Shown one piece after another: positions 3,155 through 42,965 of a DNA stretch of 64,000 nucleotides. Made by a program: the position numbers and the translations under genes. The stretch lies in NCBI RefSeq assembly GCF_000827595.2, contig NZ_LN776189.1, forward strand, positions 124,001 to 188,000. The letters run 5' to 3'. The DNA is from Necropsobacter massiliensis (GTDB taxonomy: Bacteria; Pseudomonadota; Gammaproteobacteria; Enterobacterales; Pasteurellaceae). Every line of letters begins with the position of its first letter. Position 1 is the first letter of the stretch. The notes beneath the pieces were generated by a model. That model was not told the DNA's origin. It saw nothing but the letters and a program-made list of their open reading frames with translations, and made no database searches.

Positions 3155-4318
3155 TTAATCTGCGACGTGGCGAATATCCGCCAGATAAATGGCCGGTTTG
3201 CCCCCGGCGTCACTGCCGAATAGCACCGCACTATCATCCGGCGTAAAAGACGGATGCGGGTGAGTAATTTGGCGGTCGCCGTCCAACACTTTCCATGAAG
3301 AATTGTGTTTCGCCAGTTTCACGATACGCTGTTTTTCTATATTGAATAAATACAGGAACGGATCGTTTTCGATGTTGTAGCTGTCGCTGTCGTCTACATC
3401 CACTGGCGAATCGCAACCATCGCCGACCAACAGCTTGCCGTTGAAATTACTCATTAAGTGCGAGCAGGGCGGCATGGTAATTAAGCGGGTATTTTCCAAT
3501 GTCATCGGATCCACACTGTAAATAACGCGTTCAGTTTGCCCTTTAAAGTAGGATACGTAAATCATCTTTGAACCGTCCGGCACCCAGAATTCGTGGGTAC
3601 AGGATTCCCCTAGCTGCTGTACTTTAGCTTTTCTGACGTTGCTGCCGTCTGCGTTGATAAACCACATGCGCGCATCCACCAAATCGTGCGGACCTTCGTG
3701 GCAGAAGCCGATAATGCTGTCGTCAAACGGGCGATAAGTCGGATGACCCAGCCAGCCGTTTTCCTGATGCACCACCTCCAGCTCGCCGGTTAAAATATCC
3801 ACTTTAATTAAGCGGCAAGTAGGCTTGGTGTGATAAAACGCTTTGAATTTATCCCAATCGGTCAGTGGCTGCCAGCAAGATTTTAGAATTTCGATACCGA
3901 CTAATTTCGTGCAATCGGAATTAGCTACCCATGTGCCGTAACCTTTCCAGTTTTCATCCACGGTATAAATGACTTTTTCTTCCAACGTGTGCAAATTCAC
4001 TTTGCGTAAACTGGATTCGTTTTTTACATAGAAAAAGGCTTGATCATCATTGGCGATAAAGCCGCCGAACGTATTATCGCCTTTTCCTTCGGTTAGCTGG
4101 GTTGCGATTTGCGTTTGCATATCTAACAAATAATAATTGCGATTGCCGTCGAAATCACCGGCAAACAGCAATTTGCCGCCGTCTTTGGTGAAGCATTTTT
4201 GATAGAAATAATTGCGGTGGCAAGTGATGTCTTGCGGGGTTAAACGGGTCACTTTGGTTTGGGTATCCGAATCGATAAACGATTCGAACCGTAACTGAAT
4301 TTTCTTTCCTTTAGCCAT
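3155..4318 (-). CDS. ogl: Oligogalacturonate lyase (PL22)
   Basis: Cytoplasmic beta-eliminase that splits unsaturated digalacturonate and short oligogalacturonides to 4,5-unsaturated galacturonate, the entry step of the intracellular pectin pathway. The 387-residue protein has no signal peptide and the length of characterised Ogl. The family's metal ligands are visible as Gln350, His353 and His355 (Q-I-T-H-P-H-P) together with the His of PPCSHLMSN; the SCTHEFW segment carries the His equivalent to the proposed catalytic residue. Start chosen at ATG 4318 because GAGGA lies 8 bases upstream and the protein then begins MAKGKK as in known Ogl; a longer in-frame start lacks such a site. It lies 77 bp downstream of the SSS symporter, and a strong hairpin sits in that gap. 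Confidence 0.95.
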   Translation of the reverse strand: MAKGKKIQLRFESFIDSDTQTKVTRLTPQDITCHRNYFYQKCFTKDGGKLLFAGDFDGNRNYYLLDMQTQIATQLTEGKGDNTFGGFIANDDQAFFYVKNESSLRKVNLHTLEEKVIYTVDENWKGYGTWVANSDCTKLVGIEILKSCWQPLTDWDKFKAFYHTKPTCRLIKVDILTGELEVVHQENGWLGHPTYRPFDDSIIGFCHEGPHDLVDARMWFINADGSNVRKAKVQQLGESCTHEFWVPDGSKMIYVSYFKGQTERVIYSVDPMTLENTRLITMPPCSHLMSNFNGKLLVGDGCDSPVDVDDSDSYNIENDPFLYLFNIEKQRIVKLAKHNSSWKVLDGDRQITHPHPSFTPDDSAVLFGSDAGGKPAIYLADIRHVAD

Positions 4319-4348
4319 AAATATATCCTCAATGTTGCTCATTATCCG

Positions 4349-4384
4349 GAAAAACAATAAATGAGCCTACGCCCATTTATTGTT
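4349..4384 (-). terminator. Strong intercistronic hairpin between symporter gene and ogl
   Basis: On the minus strand AACAATAAATG pairs perfectly with CATTTATTGTT; the stem continues through TGGGC/GCTCA (one G-T wobble) to a GTAG loop, giving about 16 bp, and the 3' arm runs into TTGTTTTT. It has the form of an intrinsic terminator, so it should separate or attenuate ogl from the upstream symporter gene. On the plus strand it would not have a T-tract. Confidence 0.7.
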
Positions 4385-4395
4385 GTAAGTGAAAG

Positions 4396-6132
4396 TTATT
4401 TTAGCTCCGCACTGCGTTTTAAGCCGTAACCGACGGCGAATATTGCCAAAGAACAACAGGCGAACAGCATTCTGCCCCACATTGGGTTCGGAATCAGTAC
4501 CATTAATAATAAACCCGCTGCCATGATTAAAACCAATGTACTGAGTTTTTTGCGTTGAGCGCGGTCGATTTCATCCTGACCTTCAACGGCGATACATTCG
4601 GTATCCACGTCTTTAAAGAAAGCGATTCTGTTTGCTTTGTTATCGTCTTTTTCTTCTTTGTAGAACAGCATGGTTAAGCAGAAGAAGCCGGCGGTAAAGA
4701 ACAAATGTGCGGCAATGGTGATAATGACTTTGAGTTCGGAAATTTCGCGTTTAGTTAAGTCTTCTACCCCAAACCAGCTCGCCACATATTCCGGCGTGAA
4801 TAGGTTAACCACAGACCACGAAACGAACATACCGAATACAACAGTCGCCCACGGCGCCCATTTCGGAGTTTTGCGGATTATAATTCCTAAGAATAACGGC
4901 ACCAGAATCGGGGATTGCAACAAAGTTGCCACTTGCATCATCAGATCAAACAAACTTAAATGTTTTAAAGAGTTGAAAAATTGTGCCATTAAGATAACCA
5001 AAATACCGTTCACAATGCACACAATCTGACCTGCGCGTAATAATTCTGTATCGTCGGCTTTGCCTTTCCGCACAATCGGTGCATAAAAGCTGCGCACGAA
5101 TACGCCGGAGTTGCGGTTTAAGGCGGAGTCCATGGATGACATGGTGGCGGCGAATAAGCCCGCCATTAACAAACCGACGGTGCCAAGCGGCATAACGTTG
5201 CGTGCGAATACCAGATAAACTGCATCGGAGGCTTTTTTGCCCAATTCCGGATAAGCCTGTGCAGCGTCAGGATAAATGATTGCGGTTACCCAAGGCGGGA
5301 TAAACCAGATGATCGTTCCGAACAACATTAACAGCAAGGCAAAGATTGCTGCTTTGCTGGCGTTTTTAGAATCTTTGGCGTTTAAGAAACGATAAGATTC
5401 CTGCATGTTATTGATACTTTGTAATTGTTTTACGATAAAAAACAGGAAGGTGCACACAAGAATCAACGGATAATTCATATTCGGTCCAGATACAAAACCG
5501 CCCGGGAATTTTTCGATAATTTCACTTGGCCCGCCGACAACCACTAAACCGACCACTGCGCAGGCAACGGAAATAACAGCAACTACCAGCATTTGTACGA
5601 AGTCCGATGCCACCACGCCCCATGCTCCGCTTAGCAAGGACACTAATAAGACAGAAATCCCAGTGACATAGATGGTGACAGTAATATCGGCGTCAAATAC
5701 CGCGGAGGCAAAGACGGACAAACCGTTCAACCATACACCGGCATTGATCACGCTGAGCGGGATAATTACCCAAGTGAAGAATTGCTCATTAGTCGAACCG
5801 AAACGACGTCCGACGGCTTCGGTCGGTGTATCGACGCGCATTTGGCGGAATCGTTTGGCGAAATAGAAATAAGCGAATACATAAGCGACCATATTACCGA
5901 CGAATACGGCAATCACCGACAAACCATCAGTAAAGGCTTTGCCGGCTGCACCGGTGAACGTCCAGGCGGAGAATTGAGTCATAAATGCGGTACCGCCGAC
6001 CATCCACCACAACATTCTGCCGCCGCCACGAAAGTAATCGCTGGTGCTGTTGCTTGCCATTTTTTTAAACACTAAGCTGATTGCCACAATGATGCAGAAA
6101 TAGCCGGTTATCACTAAATAATCCGTAATCAT
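4396..6132 (-). CDS. Sodium:solute symporter (SSS family), probable oligogalacturonide/uronate importer
   Basis: Inner-membrane carrier of about 578 residues with 13-14 hydrophobic segments typical of the SSS family (SGLT/PanF type), longer than the 500-residue norm because of a cytoplasmic stretch after about residue 470 (EEKDDNKANR..) and one more C-terminal membrane pair. Start taken at ATG 6132: GGAGG stands 9 bases upstream, while the upstream in-frame start has none. A KdgR-like palindrome and a TGTGATC half-site lie about 70-100 bases upstream, and ogl follows in the same direction. From this context I infer import of unsaturated digalacturonate or related uronates with Na+, in place of TogMNAB or TogT. 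The family is certain, the substrate is not. Confidence 0.85.
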   Translation of the reverse strand: MITDYLVITGYFCIIVAISLVFKKMASNSTSDYFRGGGRMLWWMVGGTAFMTQFSAWTFTGAAGKAFTDGLSVIAVFVGNMVAYVFAYFYFAKRFRQMRVDTPTEAVGRRFGSTNEQFFTWVIIPLSVINAGVWLNGLSVFASAVFDADITVTIYVTGISVLLVSLLSGAWGVVASDFVQMLVVAVISVACAVVGLVVVGGPSEIIEKFPGGFVSGPNMNYPLILVCTFLFFIVKQLQSINNMQESYRFLNAKDSKNASKAAIFALLLMLFGTIIWFIPPWVTAIIYPDAAQAYPELGKKASDAVYLVFARNVMPLGTVGLLMAGLFAATMSSMDSALNRNSGVFVRSFYAPIVRKGKADDTELLRAGQIVCIVNGILVILMAQFFNSLKHLSLFDLMMQVATLLQSPILVPLFLGIIIRKTPKWAPWATVVFGMFVSWSVVNLFTPEYVASWFGVEDLTKREISELKVIITIAAHLFFTAGFFCLTMLFYKEEKDDNKANRIAFFKDVDTECIAVEGQDEIDRAQRKKLSTLVLIMAAGLLLMVLIPNPMWGRMLFACCSLAIFAVGYGLKRSAELK

Positions 6133-6201
6133 AGAATAACGCCTCCAATAAGTCATGTCTTATTACCGGCGTTAAATCTAGCATATCGGGAAACAAAAAA
6201 A

Positions 6202-6366: not shown

Positions 6367-8583
6367 TTAACGCAATAATTGCTGAATTTTTTTCACCTCT
6401 TGCAGACCATCGTTATTTTCGGAAAACTCTATCTGGGTTAATGCCTGCAATTTTGTTATGACATCAGTGTCTGCTTGCGTCATGTCAGTGGTTGTTAAAA
6501 ACACATTGTCGGTTAACACATCGCCGTTGACCACATCCGGATATCGGCTTTCCTGATGAAAGCGGAAAGAGCGGTTGTGTGTAAAGTTGCCTTGCTTAGG
6601 GCCGTTCTCATACGGACTCTTTCTGAACAGAAAATTAAAGCGTTTGTTGTCGATTGCCACATTGTTCGCGACGGTGAACGTACCGGGATTAAAGTTGTCG
6701 GTAAAACCGTCCATATTGTTGCGAAACGCAAGACTGTGGGTAATCACATGGGGTACCGGAATGCCTTCGCCACCCAGTTTAAAGCCGTTGCCGATGGAGG
6801 CGCTTTTGCTTTTGACTTGCAAGGTTTGCCCGTTCATAAAGGCGACAGAATCTTTAATGGTGACCACGCCGTTCGGACCGTCTTCCACTTTATTGAACAG
6901 ATCCCAACCGTCGTCAATATTATGGTGCGAAATACAACGGATAAAGGTATTACCGTCGCCCACTCGCATTTTGGCGGCAAAACCATCGGCGTTAATTTGT
7001 GAATCGTCCATATTATTAAAGCTGATACTGTCGCTAACGATATTGTCGCGGGCCCACAGCGGTCTGCCGATTTTTTCCGCCGAGGTAATTTGAAAACCGG
7101 TATCCGGTGCACCGTGGGTGACGATATTGCTGAAATTATTGTAGCTGCCCTGTATGATTAAACTGGCGCCCTCCACTTCAATATCCTTCACGTTCCAGAA
7201 ACTAGCGTTGTGTCGTACTTCGCCAACGAATTTTACCTGATCTTGGGAGCCTTGCAGTGTTTTTAATGCGCCTTTTAAACCGCTGCTTTCGGCACTGATT
7301 TCAACCGCAGGGTATTCGCCCGGCTGTAACTGAATGGTGCCGCCTGGCGGCAATAGCTGAAGTGCGGTGTTTAAATCCAATGGTTTTTGTTGAGAACCGT
7401 CGCCATCCGCCGTACCTTTCGGCGCGACATATAATAAATCAGGCTGTGTTAACTGAGAGTATTCGATATTGAAGGTTGTTGCAAAGCCTTTTTCTTTCAG
7501 CTTTTCTTCCGGTATGAATTGTACGTTCAGCTCGGTGTGTGCGGCGATTAATTTCATTTTATAGGTCATAAATTCCCCGGCTTTGATCAGCGCCGACCGA
7601 AACGCGGGTTTACCCTTTTGATTCAGTATAAATTGACCGTCATAATTCGCGCGCGCTTGGAAGATATAATCTTTGGCGGCGGTTTTATGTGCGGATTCGA
7701 TACTGACCACTAACGGCAATGTTTTCGGCGTAAATGCGACCGGTTTAACCGGTTTGCCGTCGTATAGTTGTAAATTCACATTTTCCACCGTAATTTTGGC
7801 ATTGCGGGCGGCGAAAAAGCCGAGATATTGGGTTTGAGCGTTCTGGTTAGCAAGAATGCCGGGATTGACGTGATCCAATACTTTTTTATATTCTTTGTCT
7901 CCCTGACGGTAAGTAAGCACAAACCCCCGATCGTTTTTCTCCACTGTTAAATGTAATTTCCGCTCTTTAAAATCAATACCTTCTGCATAATCTTCGCGTA
8001 CCAGTCGATTGCCCGCGGTACCCCAAGGATCGTTAATGCCTTCGCGATAAGACGCGTTGATATTCACTTTGCCGTTATGTTCTCTGGCATTGCTGCGCAA
8101 TAAATTCATTACCATATTGGACGCGGCGGGGAATTCTTCGTAACCGACTGGCTGCGGCACTGCTCTCGGTTTGCCGATAATATCGCGTACCATAATGCCA
8201 GCACCTTCCTGACGATTCGGCTTAGCGCCGGTTTCCGGACCGAGTTGCTCCAGATACACATCCGCCGCAATCACAAAATTGGTATTAATCGGCAGTTCGG
8301 TGTAGTAATAGGTGACGCCTTCATGCGAATTAGCCAGCTTGCCGCCACGACTTTCAATGCTAAAGCGGGGCGCAAGCGCGCCCTCTTGCACCGGCATGCC
8401 GTCAACGGTGGTGTGGTTGATGCCGACTTTTTCCGGCAAAATGGTCGAACCGAAGTTTAAATCGGTAGATTGACCGAAAGTGATACTTTTCCATATCAAA
8501 TCCTTCGGATTCAAGGGCGCGGCAATAGCAGACGCCGAACATAACGTTAAATAAAAAAGAGCGGTCAGTTTTTTTGTGAGCAT
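6367..8583 (-). CDS. pelX: Exopolygalacturonate lyase, PL9 family, periplasmic
   Basis: Removes unsaturated digalacturonate from pectate ends; in Dickeya PelX acts in the periplasm. The 738-residue protein begins with a Sec signal peptide (MLTKKLTALFYLTLCSASAIAA), matches PelX in length, and has a large N-terminal half of unclear role followed by a right-handed beta-helix half. Family landmarks near the C-terminal half are ADGFAAKMRVG, HNIDDGWDLF (Ca-binding Asp cluster by analogy with Pel9A) and NGFKLGGEG, whose Lys is the presumed catalytic base. AGGAGA lies 7 bases before the ATG. It is transcribed alone, with its own terminator and its own KdgR-like site upstream. No outer-membrane secretion signal is visible, so substrate must reach the periplasm as oligomers. 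Confidence 0.93.
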   Translation of the reverse strand: MLTKKLTALFYLTLCSASAIAAPLNPKDLIWKSITFGQSTDLNFGSTILPEKVGINHTTVDGMPVQEGALAPRFSIESRGGKLANSHEGVTYYYTELPINTNFVIAADVYLEQLGPETGAKPNRQEGAGIMVRDIIGKPRAVPQPVGYEEFPAASNMVMNLLRSNAREHNGKVNINASYREGINDPWGTAGNRLVREDYAEGIDFKERKLHLTVEKNDRGFVLTYRQGDKEYKKVLDHVNPGILANQNAQTQYLGFFAARNAKITVENVNLQLYDGKPVKPVAFTPKTLPLVVSIESAHKTAAKDYIFQARANYDGQFILNQKGKPAFRSALIKAGEFMTYKMKLIAAHTELNVQFIPEEKLKEKGFATTFNIEYSQLTQPDLLYVAPKGTADGDGSQQKPLDLNTALQLLPPGGTIQLQPGEYPAVEISAESSGLKGALKTLQGSQDQVKFVGEVRHNASFWNVKDIEVEGASLIIQGSYNNFSNIVTHGAPDTGFQITSAEKIGRPLWARDNIVSDSISFNNMDDSQINADGFAAKMRVGDGNTFIRCISHHNIDDGWDLFNKVEDGPNGVVTIKDSVAFMNGQTLQVKSKSASIGNGFKLGGEGIPVPHVITHSLAFRNNMDGFTDNFNPGTFTVANNVAIDNKRFNFLFRKSPYENGPKQGNFTHNRSFRFHQESRYPDVVNGDVLTDNVFLTTTDMTQADTDVITKLQALTQIEFSENNDGLQEVKKIQQLLR

Positions 8584-8775: not shown

Positions 8776-8809
8776 TGTGATCGTTATCTTAAAATCAAAA
8801 CAATGTTTT
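8776..8809 (-). promoter_or_regulatory. KdgR-type operator with CRP-like half-site, upstream of pelX
   Basis: AAAACAATGTTTT at 8797-8809 is a palindrome of KdgR-box layout; TGTGATC lies 21 bases away at 8776-8782. Surrounding bases match those of the site at 6202-6235 closely (shared TGTGATC..TATCT and TGTTTTATTTTTAT). Confidence 0.6.
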
Positions 8810-8830
8810 ATTTTTATTGGTTGGTTGTGT

Positions 8831-8855
8831 AAAAAAGGGCAGTCGAATACTGCCC
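8831..8855 (-). terminator. Terminator of the kduD-kdgF operon
   Basis: Minus strand: GGGCAGT, loop ATTCG, ACTGCCC, then TTTTTT. A perfect 7-bp stem with a six-T tract, about 100 bases after the kdgF stop. Confidence 0.85.
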
Positions 8856-8956: not shown

Positions 8957-9283
8957 CTATTTAAGAAAATCCTTTCTCATCGGCGTGAAGGTGTCTAATA
9001 AGACGCCGGCTTGCCGGCAGACACAGCCGTGCATCACGTTCGGCGCTTTATATAATACATCTCCGGCATTGACCATCTTCGTTTCGTCACCGATAGTAAA
9101 TTCAAAGCTGCCGGACAACACATAGGTTAATTGTTCGTGCGGATGATTGTGCATTGCGCCAACGGCACCTTGTTCAAAATGCACTTCCACCGCCATAATG
9201 TGCTCACTGTAAGCCAGCACTTTGCGTTTAACACCGCCGCCAAGATCCTCAAGAGGAATATCGTTGTTATACACAAACGTCAT
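8957..9283 (-). CDS. kdgF: KdgF, unsaturated uronate linearising cupin
   Basis: Small single-domain cupin that speeds conversion of 4,5-unsaturated galacturonate, the Ogl product, to the linear ketouronate (DKI). The 108-residue length matches KdgF, and the metal ligands of the family are seen as His45, His47, Gln51 (MHNHPHEQ) and His85 (NVMHGC). It starts with MTFVYNND and keeps LEDLGGGV and TPMRxDFL, both typical of enteric KdgF. It lies 10 bp downstream of kdgA as the last gene of the operon, followed by a clear terminator. Confidence 0.93.
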   Translation of the reverse strand: MTFVYNNDIPLEDLGGGVKRKVLAYSEHIMAVEVHFEQGAVGAMHNHPHEQLTYVLSGSFEFTIGDETKMVNAGDVLYKAPNVMHGCVCRQAGVLLDTFTPMRKDFLK

Positions 9284-9293
9284 GTTTCTTTCC

Positions 9294-9932
9294 TTATTTC
9301 ACTACATTTACTACTTCGCGCACCAGGCGTCCGATTTCATCCCAGTTTTTTGCCGCGATCAGGGATTTTTCCACAAACCAAGAACCGCCGCAGGCAATGA
9401 CATTAGGAACGGCGAGATAATCTCGGATATTGTGGATGCCGATACCGCCGGTCGGCATGATCTGCAATTGCGCATAAGGACCGAGTAACGCTTTGATCAT
9501 TTTCACACCGCCACTGGCCTCCGCCGGGAAAAATTTTACCGCACGAATCCCCATTTCCAGCGCCGCTTCAATCGCCATAGGGTTATTGACGCCCGGCGTA
9601 ACGGGAATATTCAGTGCCTGACATAATTGCACGATCCGCGGGTTAAAGCCCGGTGTGACGATACAATCAGCGCCGGCATGTTGGGCGCGCACCACCTGAT
9701 CTGGCGTCAGCACTGTGCCTGCCGCAATCAAAATAGCCGGATTATGGCGGCGCAGCAGACCAATAGCCTCTTCCGCCGCGGCGGAACGAAACGTGATTTC
9801 CACTACCGGCAACCCGTTGGTTGCCAAGGTTTCGGCAAGAGGCAGAATATCAGCCGCATTGTCCAGTGCGATCACCGGCACCACTTTTAATTGCGCCAGT
9901 GTGTCGATAATTTGTGCTGTGCTATAACTCAT
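9294..9932 (-). CDS. kdgA: 2-dehydro-3-deoxy-phosphogluconate (KDPG) aldolase
   Basis: Class I aldolase splitting KDPG to pyruvate and glyceraldehyde-3-phosphate, the last step of the uronate pathway. The 212 residues form one TIM barrel. The Schiff-base lysine is Lys133 in VKFFPAE and the catalytic glutamate is Glu45 in VVEITFR, at the same positions as in E. coli Eda. It lies 9 bp after kdgK and 10 bp before kdgF, so it is co-transcribed with them. E. coli calls the orthologue eda; kdgA is used here because of the context. Confidence 0.95.
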   Translation of the reverse strand: MSYSTAQIIDTLAQLKVVPVIALDNAADILPLAETLATNGLPVVEITFRSAAAEEAIGLLRRHNPAILIAAGTVLTPDQVVRAQHAGADCIVTPGFNPRIVQLCQALNIPVTPGVNNPMAIEAALEMGIRAVKFFPAEASGGVKMIKALLGPYAQLQIMPTGGIGIHNIRDYLAVPNVIACGGSWFVEKSLIAAKNWDEIGRLVREVVNVVK

Positions 9933-9941
9933 AATCTATTC

Positions 9942-10883
9942 CTAATTAAATTCGTCAATAAAATGTGCGGTGGCGGCGCTGTCGATAATCGCACCTTTAT
10001 GCTGAATCACCACGCCTGCCAGCGCATTGCCTTGTCGGCAGCAGTGAGCAAGCGGTTTATTTTGCAGATAGCCGTTTAAAAAGCCGGCGTTGAACGCATC
10101 GCCTGCCGAGGTGGTATCTACCACATTAGCAACCGCGTCGGTATGGATTTGTTGTTCTTCACCGTTAAAACTGCTGAAAAACGCACCGCACTTTCCTTGT
10201 TTCACCACCACGCTGTTTACTCCGGCATTTTTCAAGCGGCGCACCGTGTGTTGCGGATGTTCATCCTGCCAGACGGCCTGTTCGTCATCAAAGGTGACTA
10301 ATGCCAGACTGACGGCGGGGAAAAGTGCGGTGTAAATTTGCTGCGTTTCCGCCAAAGACGCCCATAAATTCGGGCGATAATTGCTGTCAAAAGCGATTTC
10401 AACACCTTGTTGCGCAAGCTGTTTAAGCCGATTGATAAGGGTGATGCGATCCGGCGGCGGCAAAATTGCCAGCGAAATGCCGCTCAGATAAATCATATCG
10501 ACCTTTTCCAGTTGCGCCGAAATTTGCGGGTAGTCTTGATGTTGCAATAAATAGCGGGCGGCGGATTGGTTGCGCCAATATAAAAAGGTGCGTTCGCCCT
10601 GTGGATCAAGCTGAATCAAATATAAACCCGGCTGCCGCTGCCCATCGCGCAGTACCAGAGCCGTGTTGATATTATCCGCCTGCCAGTGCTCGAGCATACC
10701 TTGACTGAGTTTGTCCGTACCCAGCGCCGAGACATATCGGATGTCAAGCTGTTGCGTTGGGCTGATACGGGCTAAATACGTCGCCGTATTCAGTGTATCG
10801 CCGCCGTAAGTCTGGCGCATAGTGCCGAACGGTTCGCCGTTCAGCTCAATCATACATTCGCCGATTATCGCTATTTTTTTCAT
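9942..10883 (-). CDS. kdgK: 2-dehydro-3-deoxygluconate (KDG) kinase, PfkB family
   Basis: Cytosolic ribokinase-type enzyme that phosphorylates KDG to KDPG with ATP. The 313 residues show the N-terminal PfkB signature region (GGDTLNTATYLARI, about residues 28-41) and the C-terminal anion-hole motif DTTSAGDAFNAGF with the catalytic Asp, near residue 252. GGGAGCAGG precedes the ATG. It follows the RpiB-like gene after a 60-bp gap containing a strong hairpin and precedes kdgA by 9 bp. Two USS cores lie inside (near 10187 and 10326). Confidence 0.94.
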   Translation of the reverse strand: MKKIAIIGECMIELNGEPFGTMRQTYGGDTLNTATYLARISPTQQLDIRYVSALGTDKLSQGMLEHWQADNINTALVLRDGQRQPGLYLIQLDPQGERTFLYWRNQSAARYLLQHQDYPQISAQLEKVDMIYLSGISLAILPPPDRITLINRLKQLAQQGVEIAFDSNYRPNLWASLAETQQIYTALFPAVSLALVTFDDEQAVWQDEHPQHTVRRLKNAGVNSVVVKQGKCGAFFSSFNGEEQQIHTDAVANVVDTTSAGDAFNAGFLNGYLQNKPLAHCCRQGNALAGVVIQHKGAIIDSAATAHFIDEFN

Positions 10884-10943: not shown

Positions 10944-11585
10944 TTAGCTCGCCAAAATGTCGCGGACGAATTGTTCGATTGCTTTGTCCTGACAGTTGGC
11001 AAAGAAACATTGCTGGAAGCGTTCGCCGCTGACGGCAGTTTTCACCAGTTCCGGATCGATTGCGCGCAGCGTATCCAAATAATTGTCTTTTACCACCGCT
11101 CTTTTCACTTGATCCAAAATACCGGCGTTGCGAATCTGCGGTTCCTTGCGTTCTGCCGGATAGCCCTCGCCGCGTACGCCGGTAAAGGCTTTTTCAAACA
11201 TATAGCGCAGGTTTAATTCCGCTCCCCAGCCGAAACCTTTGGCGAAGGCTAATGCCAGTGCATTGCCGTTATTGATCTGACAAAACAGGAACGCATCAGT
11301 CGGATCCAAACAATAGCCGCACACCACGCCGGGGTGGATATTGAGCGACATCATCGCGCCTTGTCCGGTGCCGCAACCGGTCACTACAAAATCCACCGCT
11401 TTGGAATTAAGCAGGATGCTAGCCATAATGCCTAGGTGAATGTAAGTCAGGTGGTGATCGTTTTCATCGGACATGCCTACATTAAACACTGCATAGCCTT
11501 TTGGATCGACCACGGTTTTTAATTCTTTCAGTACCACAGCGTTTTTAGCTGCTTGGCTGTTTTCCATCATTAATGCAATTTTCAT
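10944..11585 (-). CDS. RpiB/LacAB-family isomerase, probable DKI isomerase replacing KduI
   Basis: A 213-residue member of the RpiB/LacA/LacB fold, longer than the 150-residue ribose-phosphate isomerases. The catalytic-cysteine motif is kept as TGCGTGQGAM (Cys71). Start set at ATG 11585, since AAGG stands 9 bases upstream; the ATG two codons earlier is too close. It sits between kduD and kdgK, where the pathway needs an isomerase for 5-keto-4-deoxyuronate, and no kduI is present. Streptococcal DhuI, an RpiB-family protein beside a KduD-like dehydrogenase, carries out this reaction on unsaturated uronates. A DhuI-like role is therefore inferred; an ordinary pentose-phosphate role is unlikely because rpiA is present at 42306. 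Confidence 0.8.
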   Translation of the reverse strand: MKIALMMENSQAAKNAVVLKELKTVVDPKGYAVFNVGMSDENDHHLTYIHLGIMASILLNSKAVDFVVTGCGTGQGAMMSLNIHPGVVCGYCLDPTDAFLFCQINNGNALALAFAKGFGWGAELNLRYMFEKAFTGVRGEGYPAERKEPQIRNAGILDQVKRAVVKDNYLDTLRAIDPELVKTAVSGERFQQCFFANCQDKAIEQFVRDILAS

Positions 11586-11639
11586 CGTCATACACCTTTT
11601 ATCAATTAAGTTAAAAAATACTCTGGCACGGCGTTGTGA

Positions 11640-12395
11640 CTATCTTGCCAGCCAGCCGCCGTCAACTGCAACGCTATAACCGTTGACATAATCGCTGGCT
11701 GCCGAGGCTAAGAATACACAAGGGCCGACTAAATCGTTTGGCGTTCCCCAGCGGCCTGCTGGGATACGGTCTAAAATTTCTTTGCTACGGGCTTCGTCGG
11801 CGCGTAAGGCGGCAGTGTTGTCGGTGGCCATATAGCCCGGCGCAACGGCATTCACATTAATATGATATTTTGCCCATTCATTTGCCATGGCGCGGGTAAT
11901 GCCCATCACGGCGCTTTTTGATGCGGTGTAGGACGGCACCCGAATGCCGCCTTGAAATGACAGCATAGAGGCAACATTGATGATTTTACCGCCATGACCT
12001 TGTTTGATGAATTGTTTTGCCGCCAGTTGAGACAGAAAGAACACGGTTTTTAAGTTGATATTAATGACGTCATCCCAGTTCTGTTCGCTGAAATCAATGG
12101 CATCTTCGCGACGGATAATCCCAGCGTTGTTGACTAAAATATCAATTTTACCGAATACGGCAACGGCTTTTTCGATGATCTCGGCAAGTCCTTCTTGTTT
12201 CATTAGATTGGCTTCAAGATTGACGAATTTGCGCCCCGCGGCTTCGATTTTTTGTTTGGTTTCTAGCGGTTCGACCAGATTAATCCCGACGATATCACAG
12301 CCGGCTTGCGCCAGACCCAGCGCCATGCCTTGACCGAGACCTGTGTTGCAACCTGTCACTACGGCGACTTTTCCGGTGAGATCAAATAAGTTCAT
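11640..12395 (-). CDS. kduD: 2-deoxy-D-gluconate 3-dehydrogenase (SDR family)
   Basis: Reduces 2,5-diketo-3-deoxygluconate (DKII) to KDG with NAD(P)H. The 251-residue short-chain dehydrogenase has the cofactor motif TGCNTGLGQG near residue 15, NNAG near residue 90, and the catalytic Tyr/Lys in PSYTASKSA near residue 155. It ends in DGGWLAR like E. coli KduD, to which it is very similar along its whole length. It is the first gene of the minus-strand operon and stands divergently to kdgR, with a KdgR-type palindrome between the two. Confidence 0.95.
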   Translation of the reverse strand: MNLFDLTGKVAVVTGCNTGLGQGMALGLAQAGCDIVGINLVEPLETKQKIEAAGRKFVNLEANLMKQEGLAEIIEKAVAVFGKIDILVNNAGIIRREDAIDFSEQNWDDVININLKTVFFLSQLAAKQFIKQGHGGKIINVASMLSFQGGIRVPSYTASKSAVMGITRAMANEWAKYHINVNAVAPGYMATDNTAALRADEARSKEILDRIPAGRWGTPNDLVGPCVFLASAASDYVNGYSVAVDGGWLAR

Positions 12396-12505
12396 ATAAC
12401 ATCTCCTTGAGACCTGAATGTGTTGGATTGAAATAAAATAGCAGCGTTACTCTCTGTGCTGTATGAACCGCATTATACATAGAATAAAAATATATTACAA
12501 TAAAT

Positions 12506-12522
12506 ATGAAACATTATTTCAT
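12506..12522. promoter_or_regulatory. KdgR operator in the kduD-kdgR divergent region
   Basis: ATGAAACATTATTTCAT is a near-perfect inverted repeat (ATGAAAC / ATTTCAT) and fits the enterobacterial KdgR box. It lies 111 bases before the kduD start and 120 before kdgR. Control of the operon and autoregulation are inferred. Confidence 0.75.
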
Positions 12523-12641
12523 TTTTTATATCTAAATTTGAGATAGCGTAAGTTTTTTTCTAAAAGAAAACTTTTATGCTATTATTTGCGCTATTACAAG
12601 AGAATTTCGTTTAATCATAAACAGATAACATATGGATCACC

Positions 12642-13433
12642 ATGGAAAAAGAAACGCAACCGGAAGCAGTATCTTCAGTATTAAAAGTGTTCGGTATTAT
12701 TGAAGCATTGGCTGAACAGAAAGAAATCGGCATTACTGACTTGGCGCAGCGCTTAATGATGTCTAAAAGTACGACCTATCGTTTTTTACAGACAATGAAA
12801 ACGCTGGGTTTTGTATCTCAGGAGGGAGAAACGGATAAATACCGTTTAACCTTAAAGCTGTTTGAGGTCGGGGCGAAATCCTTAGAATATGTGGATTTAA
12901 TCACATTAGCCAACAAGGAAATGGCCTATATTGCCAAGCAAACCAATGAGACGTTGCATTTAGGGATGCTGGAGGGCAATGAAATCATTTATTTGCACAA
13001 GATTGATTCTAATTACAGCTTAAGAATGCACTCCCGTATTGGGCGACGTAACCCGTTATACAGCACAGCGATCGGAAAAGTGCTGCTGTCCGACTATAGC
13101 GAGGCGGAGGTTAGAGAGATATTGAAAGACGTCGCTTTCATTAAACACACCGAAAAAACGCTGGAAAACATTGAGCAGCTTGCACAGGAACTGGATAAAG
13201 TACGGCAACAGCATTATGCGGAAGATAATGAAGAGCAGGAACCGGGCTTAAGATGTATTGCGGCGCCGGTGTATAACCGCTTCGGGCATATTATTGCTGG
13301 CATTTCGATTTCCCTGCCGACTATCCGTTTTAAAGAAGAGCAACTGCCGTATTTGGTCGGTTTGCTGCAACAGGCGGGCAAGAAAGTCTCTGAGCAACTA
13401 GGCTATCACAATTATCCGCCGATTGCCGATTAG
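12642..13433 (+). CDS. kdgR: Transcriptional repressor KdgR (IclR family)
   Basis: IclR-type regulator, in enterobacteria released from DNA by KDG. The 263 residues contain an N-terminal winged helix-turn-helix (IGITDLAQRLMMSKSTTYRF, about residues 28-47) and the C-terminal IclR effector domain, with GRRNPLYSTAIGKVLL and NEEQEPGLRCIA close to E. coli KdgR. The protein matches KdgR throughout and ends YHNYPPIAD against YHDYPF. It faces away from kduD, and KdgR-type palindromes occur at three promoters of this locus, so it most probably governs all of them. Confidence 0.93.
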   Translation: MEKETQPEAVSSVLKVFGIIEALAEQKEIGITDLAQRLMMSKSTTYRFLQTMKTLGFVSQEGETDKYRLTLKLFEVGAKSLEYVDLITLANKEMAYIAKQTNETLHLGMLEGNEIIYLHKIDSNYSLRMHSRIGRRNPLYSTAIGKVLLSDYSEAEVREILKDVAFIKHTEKTLENIEQLAQELDKVRQQHYAEDNEEQEPGLRCIAAPVYNRFGHIIAGISISLPTIRFKEEQLPYLVGLLQQAGKKVSEQLGYHNYPPIAD

Positions 13434-42305: not shown

Positions 42306-42965
42306 ATGGATCAATTAACCATGAAAAAACAGGCGGCGCAGGCAGCGTTAGCCTATGTAAAAGCGGATACCATTGTCGGCGTTGGCAGCGGTTCGACGGT
42401 AAACTGTTTTATTGAAGCGCTCGGTACGCTGAAAAACCAGATTAAAGGCGCGGTGGCGGCGTCGAAACATTCGGAAGAATTATTGAGAAAGCAAGGCATT
42501 GAAGTGTTCAGTGCCAACGATGTGTCAAGTTTGGATATTTATGTGGACGGCGCCGATGAGGTGAATCCGCAGAAAATGATGATTAAAGGCGGCGGCGCGG
42601 CGCTGACACGTGAAAAAATTGTGGCTGCATTAGCAAAAAAATTCATCTGCATCGTGGATAGCAGCAAACGGGTAGATGTGTTAGGCTCTACATTCGCCCT
42701 GCCGGTGGAAGTGATTCCGATGGCGCGTTCGCAAGTAGCGCGCAAATTGGTTGCGCTGGGCGGTTTGCCGGAATATCGCGAAGGCGTTGTGACCGATAAC
42801 GGTAATGTGATTTTAGACGTATATAATTTTAAAATTATGAACCCGGTGGAAATGGAAAAAACCTTGAATAATGTCGCCGGCGTGGTCACTAACGGGATTT
42901 TCGCCCTGCGCGCGGCGGATATTATTATTGTCGGCACTCCCGACGGTACTGAAATCATTGAATAA
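42306..42965 (+). CDS. rpiA: Ribose-5-phosphate isomerase A
   Basis: Interconverts ribose-5-phosphate and ribulose-5-phosphate in the pentose phosphate pathway. 219 residues with [16 protein letters not shown] (phosphate loop), [27 protein letters not shown] carrying the catalytic Asp/Glu/Lys set, and [12 protein letters not shown] near the C-terminus. ATG 42306 has AAGGAAAG upstream. serA follows 25 bp later, the same rpiA-serA pairing as in E. coli. Confidence 0.96.

Follow-up and report, generated by a model that had tools for sequence, protein, structure and literature searches.

A DhuI-type isomerase of the RpiB/LacAB fold, predicted to act in place of KduI, in a pectin operon of Necropsobacter massiliensis

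Organisation of the locus

The window analysed here, a stretch of 64,000 nucleotides of the Necropsobacter massiliensis contig NZ_LN776189.1, contains an operon with the gene order kduD-dhuI-kdgK-kdgA-kdgF (Table 1). It is neighboured by genes encoding a PL9 lyase, a symporter and an oligogalacturonate lyase (OGL), and by a divergent gene encoding an IclR/KdgR-type regulator. The gene dhuI is separated by 48 bp from kduD and by 60 bp from kdgK, which is followed by kdgA and kdgF with gaps of 9-10 bp. The hairpin found 3' of kdgF is probably the end of the kduD-dhuI-kdgK-kdgA-kdgF transcript.

Table 1. Positions of the genes and sequence features of the pectin locus in the window
Feature	Position	Strand	Remarks
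dhuI-type DKI/DHU isomerase, predicted (PRK09273, RpiB/LacAB fold), 213 aa	10944..11585	-	upstream alternative start at 11591
kduD, 2-dehydro-3-deoxy-D-gluconate 5-dehydrogenase	11640..12395	-	TIGR01832 above cut-off
kdgK, PfkB-type 2-keto-3-deoxygluconokinase	9942..10883	-	top NCBIfam match KdgK, 360 bits, below the 400-bit cut-off
kdgA (eda), KDPG/KHG aldolase	9294..9932	-	profile match
kdgF-type cupin	8957..9283	-	matches to cupin domains only; named from context and similarity
Terminator-like hairpin with T run, 3' of kdgF	8837..8855	-	
PL9-type polysaccharide lyase (Pel9A-like beta helix)	6367..8583	-	domain match
Sodium:solute symporter, candidate for oligogalacturonide uptake	4396..6156	-	domain match
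Oligogalacturonate lyase (PL22), cytoplasmic supplier of the DHU precursor	3155..4357	-	domain match
IclR-family regulator, KdgR-like, divergent to kduD	12642..13433	+	domain match
KdgR-like palindrome TATGAAACATTATTTCATT (minus strand AATGAAATAATGTTTCATA)	12505..12523	.	14/16 positions of the presumed consensus

A preliminary description of this DNA had placed a 213-residue protein of the RpiB fold, with the motif TGCGTGQGAM, between kduD and kdgK, and a KdgF in the same cluster. Both were found, the former as an intact open reading frame at that position and the latter as a KdgF-type cupin gene downstream of kdgA. The longest form of the dhuI reading frame (10944-11591) encodes 215 residues, and the start at 11585 gives a product of 213 residues beginning with MKIALMM. 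This second start was preferred because it is preceded, at about 7 nt, by the Shine-Dalgarno-like sequence AAAGGTG and because all relatives begin with MKIAL. The cysteine of the motif is residue 73 in the 215-residue form and Cys71 in the numbering used here.

The KdgR-like palindrome lies between kduD and the divergent IclR-type gene. It was scored over 16 positions against what we take to be the KdgR box consensus, and an equal score with this consensus was obtained in 1 of 2000 dinucleotide shuffles. A promoter-like site (TTGTAA-17-TATAAT, minus strand, 12500-12472) adjoins it, and the kduD-dhuI operon is predicted to be controlled by KdgR. A weaker KdgR-like palindrome (12/16) is located at 8794-8812, between kdgF and the PL9 gene and past the terminator-like hairpin, as expected if the genes for the PL9 lyase, the symporter and OGL formed a second KdgR-controlled unit.

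Search for kduI, rpiA and further RpiB-family genes

The preliminary description reported that kduI is absent from the cluster. The genome (2.49 Mb in 42 contigs, rated 100% complete) was searched in all six frames with profiles, and no candidate for the KduI model PRK00924 was found in the whole genome, which extends this absence well beyond the cluster. A kduI elsewhere had been named beforehand as evidence against the proposed role of DhuI; none was detected, and the only gene of the KduI/IolB family is iolB. This gene, the sole match to PF04962 in the genome, was considered a kduI candidate at first and was then recognised as IolB (TIGR04378, E 5e-100). It adjoins a gene labelled as RpiR-type by reading its sequence, in a locus unrelated to the pectin operon. 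The rpiA gene that had been reported elsewhere in the window was located at about 42450-42947, and the whole genome holds no second RpiB-family gene.

Identity of the protein

The protein matched the NCBIfam model PRK09273 with 369 bits (E 5e-111, cut-off 137) over positions 1-210 of the 211 of the profile, and it passed the Pfam models LacAB_rpiB and DUF3666, the latter corresponding to the C-terminal domain. The score obtained with the RpiB equivalog model was 21.5 bits, against a cut-off of 138.65, and the scores of all NCBIfam RpiB, LacA and LacB models were far below their cut-offs. Streptococcal DhuI had been put forward as the precedent for an RpiB-family enzyme isomerising DKI, and the comparison supports this choice, as the protein belongs to the same PRK09273/DUF3666 family and is 56% identical to DhuI of Streptococcus agalactiae (gbs1892, PDB 4u8e) over 210 aligned residues without long gaps. 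Among the other solved structures the closest is 3ono (74% identity), followed by 2ppw (55%) and 3c5y (54%), and the identity to four genuine RpiB proteins of Pasteurellaceae is 20-22%. In a tree of 51 sequences, RpiB is separated by a 100/100 branch from a DhuI-type group that includes the characterised DhuI. The protein from the window is placed among Pasteurellaceae genes adjoining kduD, many of the inner branches being weak.

In RpiB the Cys of the CGTG motif is the catalytic base, a His opens the sugar ring and the His of the SDH motif binds the phosphate (PMC4783025, PMC3212906). The alignment revealed that the protein keeps the catalytic Cys, has Ile at the position of the ring-opening His99 and carries MEN in place of SDH. 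By analogy with the RpiB fold, Cys71 would be the base for proton transfer via an enediolate. The loss of the ring-opening His and of part of the phosphate-binding pattern could be explained by a substrate that is a linear, unphosphorylated uronate, and the active site as a whole would suit a substrate of this kind, such as DHU.

The RpiB/LacAB fold and the conserved Cys, along with the frequent public annotation 'RpiB/LacA/LacB family sugar-phosphate isomerase', would also agree with an enzyme for ribose-5-phosphate, allose-6-phosphate or galactose-6-phosphate that is located in the pectin operon by chance. However, besides the low model scores and the missing residues, the genome has rpiA, other Pasteurellaceae have genuine rpiB as a separate gene with a product of about 150 residues, and the linkage of dhuI with lyase, GH88 and kduD genes is a repeated one (see below). 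The scores of the models, the residues of the active site and the gene context all speak against a role on these sugar phosphates, which was rejected and is considered highly improbable. The presence of rpiA had already been held against a pentose role in the preliminary description.

Distribution in Pasteurellaceae

Among 140 Pasteurellaceae genomes dhuI was found above the cut-off in 23, kduI in 17 and strict KduD (above the TIGR01832 cut-off) in 18. Eight of these 18 have dhuI only (including the genome studied here), five have kduI only, five have both and none has neither; the association of kduD with dhuI gave a Fisher p of 9e-9, and relatedness is ignored both in the counts and in this statistic. 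In 22 of the 23 genomes dhuI lies within 3.5 kb, on the same strand, of kduD or of a gene encoding a GH88 glucuronyl hydrolase, and in the remaining one it is placed at a contig edge adjoining kdgK and kduI. The GH88 loci hold PTS components, a sulfatase, a radical-SAM/SPASM protein (putatively anSME-like) and a LacD-type aldolase, a gene content by which they are identified as glycosaminoglycan loci resembling the streptococcal one. In one genome (locus L112) the pair kduD-dhuI is itself within a glycosaminoglycan-type locus. DHU/DKI is the product common to the pectin and the glycosaminoglycan dhuI loci.

Some further features of these genomes were observed. In nine of them (L105, L109, L122, L123, L131, L132, L108, L133 and L134) dhuI is found beside GH88 in a locus of the glycosaminoglycan type, without a KduD above the TIGR01832 cut-off, a point to be weighed against the DKI-isomerase reading. 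In one kduD-positive genome counted as kduI only (G036; locus L117, G036:C6:53677-54509) the kduI match is in two pieces, with a frameshift or stop, and no full-length dhuI is present; either the isomerase is broken or the sequence contains an error. Moreover, kduI of Pasteurellaceae is often followed by a TRAP-like transporter, whether dhuI is present or not (L111, which is G100:C7, L113, L115, L117 and L124), the genes being read from sequence as a DctP-type binding protein and two permeases.

Occurrence in other bacteria

In Rahnella megaplasmids kduD-dhuI adjoins genes for a cupin and OGL, Vibrio tritonius has the order kdgR-kduD-ygjV-cupin-dhuI close to TRAP and GH88 genes, and Novosphingobium has dhuI-kduD. 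Many enterobacteria (Citrobacter, Klebsiella, Enterobacter, Kosakonia and Yersinia) have an orphan gene, 84-88% identical, at a distance from kduD. Annotation, available for Klebsiella and for Salmonella (whose copy is 80% identical), places the orphan gene near ftnA. A full kduI is also present in 19 of the 24 sampled genomes carrying dhuI, which are mostly enterobacteria and include the two nearest Pasteurellaceae. Together with the orphan genes this indicates that a role as stand-in for KduI is too simple a description of the DhuI family in enterobacteria. From these occurrences DhuI is recognised as a widespread gammaproteobacterial enzyme, and the genome studied here as one of those with DhuI alone.

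A KdgR-like box is found about 110 bp upstream of most copies of the orphan enterobacterial dhuI (loci L006-L082), its position varying little, and most of the genomes with such a copy have kduI too. This orphan gene may be spiX of the published Dickeya KdgR regulon (PMC6127512).

Proposed function and history

DhuI homology, the changes in the active site, the operon context, the absence of kduI from the genome and the pattern of presence and absence in 140 relatives all agree, and it is therefore very likely that the protein is a DKI/DHU isomerase doing the job of KduI, as the preliminary description had proposed. DhuI would fill the step of KduI, which is missing from the genome. The activity of DhuI on DHU, together with DhuD, and an assay of the pairing of DhuI with KduD are described in PMC6045597.

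Since relatives of the same genus and most sampled enterobacteria hold both dhuI and kduI, the two enzymes may not be fully equivalent, and DhuI might isomerise DKI as an auxiliary enzyme only, with an unrecognised isomerase providing the main KduI function. This is quite unlikely in view of the lack of both kduI and any kduI remnant in the genome, of the seven other kduD-positive Pasteurellaceae with dhuI only, and of the identity and unrelated locus of iolB, the sole relative with the KduI fold. A further idea, also unlikely, is that where both enzymes are present the gammaproteobacterial DhuI takes a distinct form or epimer of 4-deoxy-5-keto-uronate, or acts in another flux state, and that the species studied here has come to depend on DhuI alone.

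The non-orthologous replacement of KduI suggested earlier is supported for DhuI as a functional stand-in, but not as history. The two relatives of the same genus, which are the nearest ones, have dhuI beside kduD and a separate kduI on a different contig. In the relative whose kduI locus was inspected, this gene shares an operon with a TRAP transporter. As both isomerases are present in these two relatives, 'replacement' is too strong a word, and the loss of kduI as one of two redundant isomerases is the simplest account.

Comparison with known systems

The protein shares with S. agalactiae DhuI (gbs1892, 4u8e/4u8f) the full-length PRK09273/DUF3666 architecture, the catalytic Cys and the company of an SDR reductase, kdgK and kdgA. 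The partner reductase is KduD in the window, in the order kduD-dhuI, whereas it is DhuD in S. agalactiae, and the context is pectin (OGL, PL9) rather than glycosaminoglycan. The structure 3ono, the closest one, is entered as 'Ribose/Galactose Isomerase', a molecule name that gives no specific function. KduI (PRK00924) of Dickeya and E. coli would have the same reaction and position in the pathway as DhuI, but has a cupin-type fold unrelated to the RpiB/LacAB fold. RpiB has the same fold and catalytic Cys, whereas the protein from the window is only 21% identical to it, lacks the ring-opening His and has the C-terminal extension DUF3666.

Nishimura et al. (2025; PMC12838403) classified clusters of KduI/DhuI with KduD/DhuD across 3,550 genomes. 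Their type H, kduD-dhuI, comprises 41 strains, 40 of them Pseudomonadota; 28 of the 41 are without kduI, a KdgF-type cupin gene lies between kduD and dhuI in 12, and type H DhuI forms its own clade. Pasteurellaceae are not named in the main text. In the window dhuI comes after kduD and is co-oriented with it, and the cluster is without kduI, as in type H; nothing essential differs, the cupin gene being downstream of kdgA. Since type H clusters without kduI have been published for Pseudomonadota, the arrangement belongs to a class that is already covered and is not the new case that the preliminary description had expected. Nevertheless, DhuI offers a functional label for Pasteurellaceae genes commonly annotated as sugar-phosphate isomerases and would explain seemingly incomplete pectin operons of this family that have no kduI. 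One isomerase for pectin and glycosaminoglycan loci in the same family is, moreover, a useful rule for annotation. The general principle of DhuI in the place of KduI is already in print, and the window provides a clean example of it.
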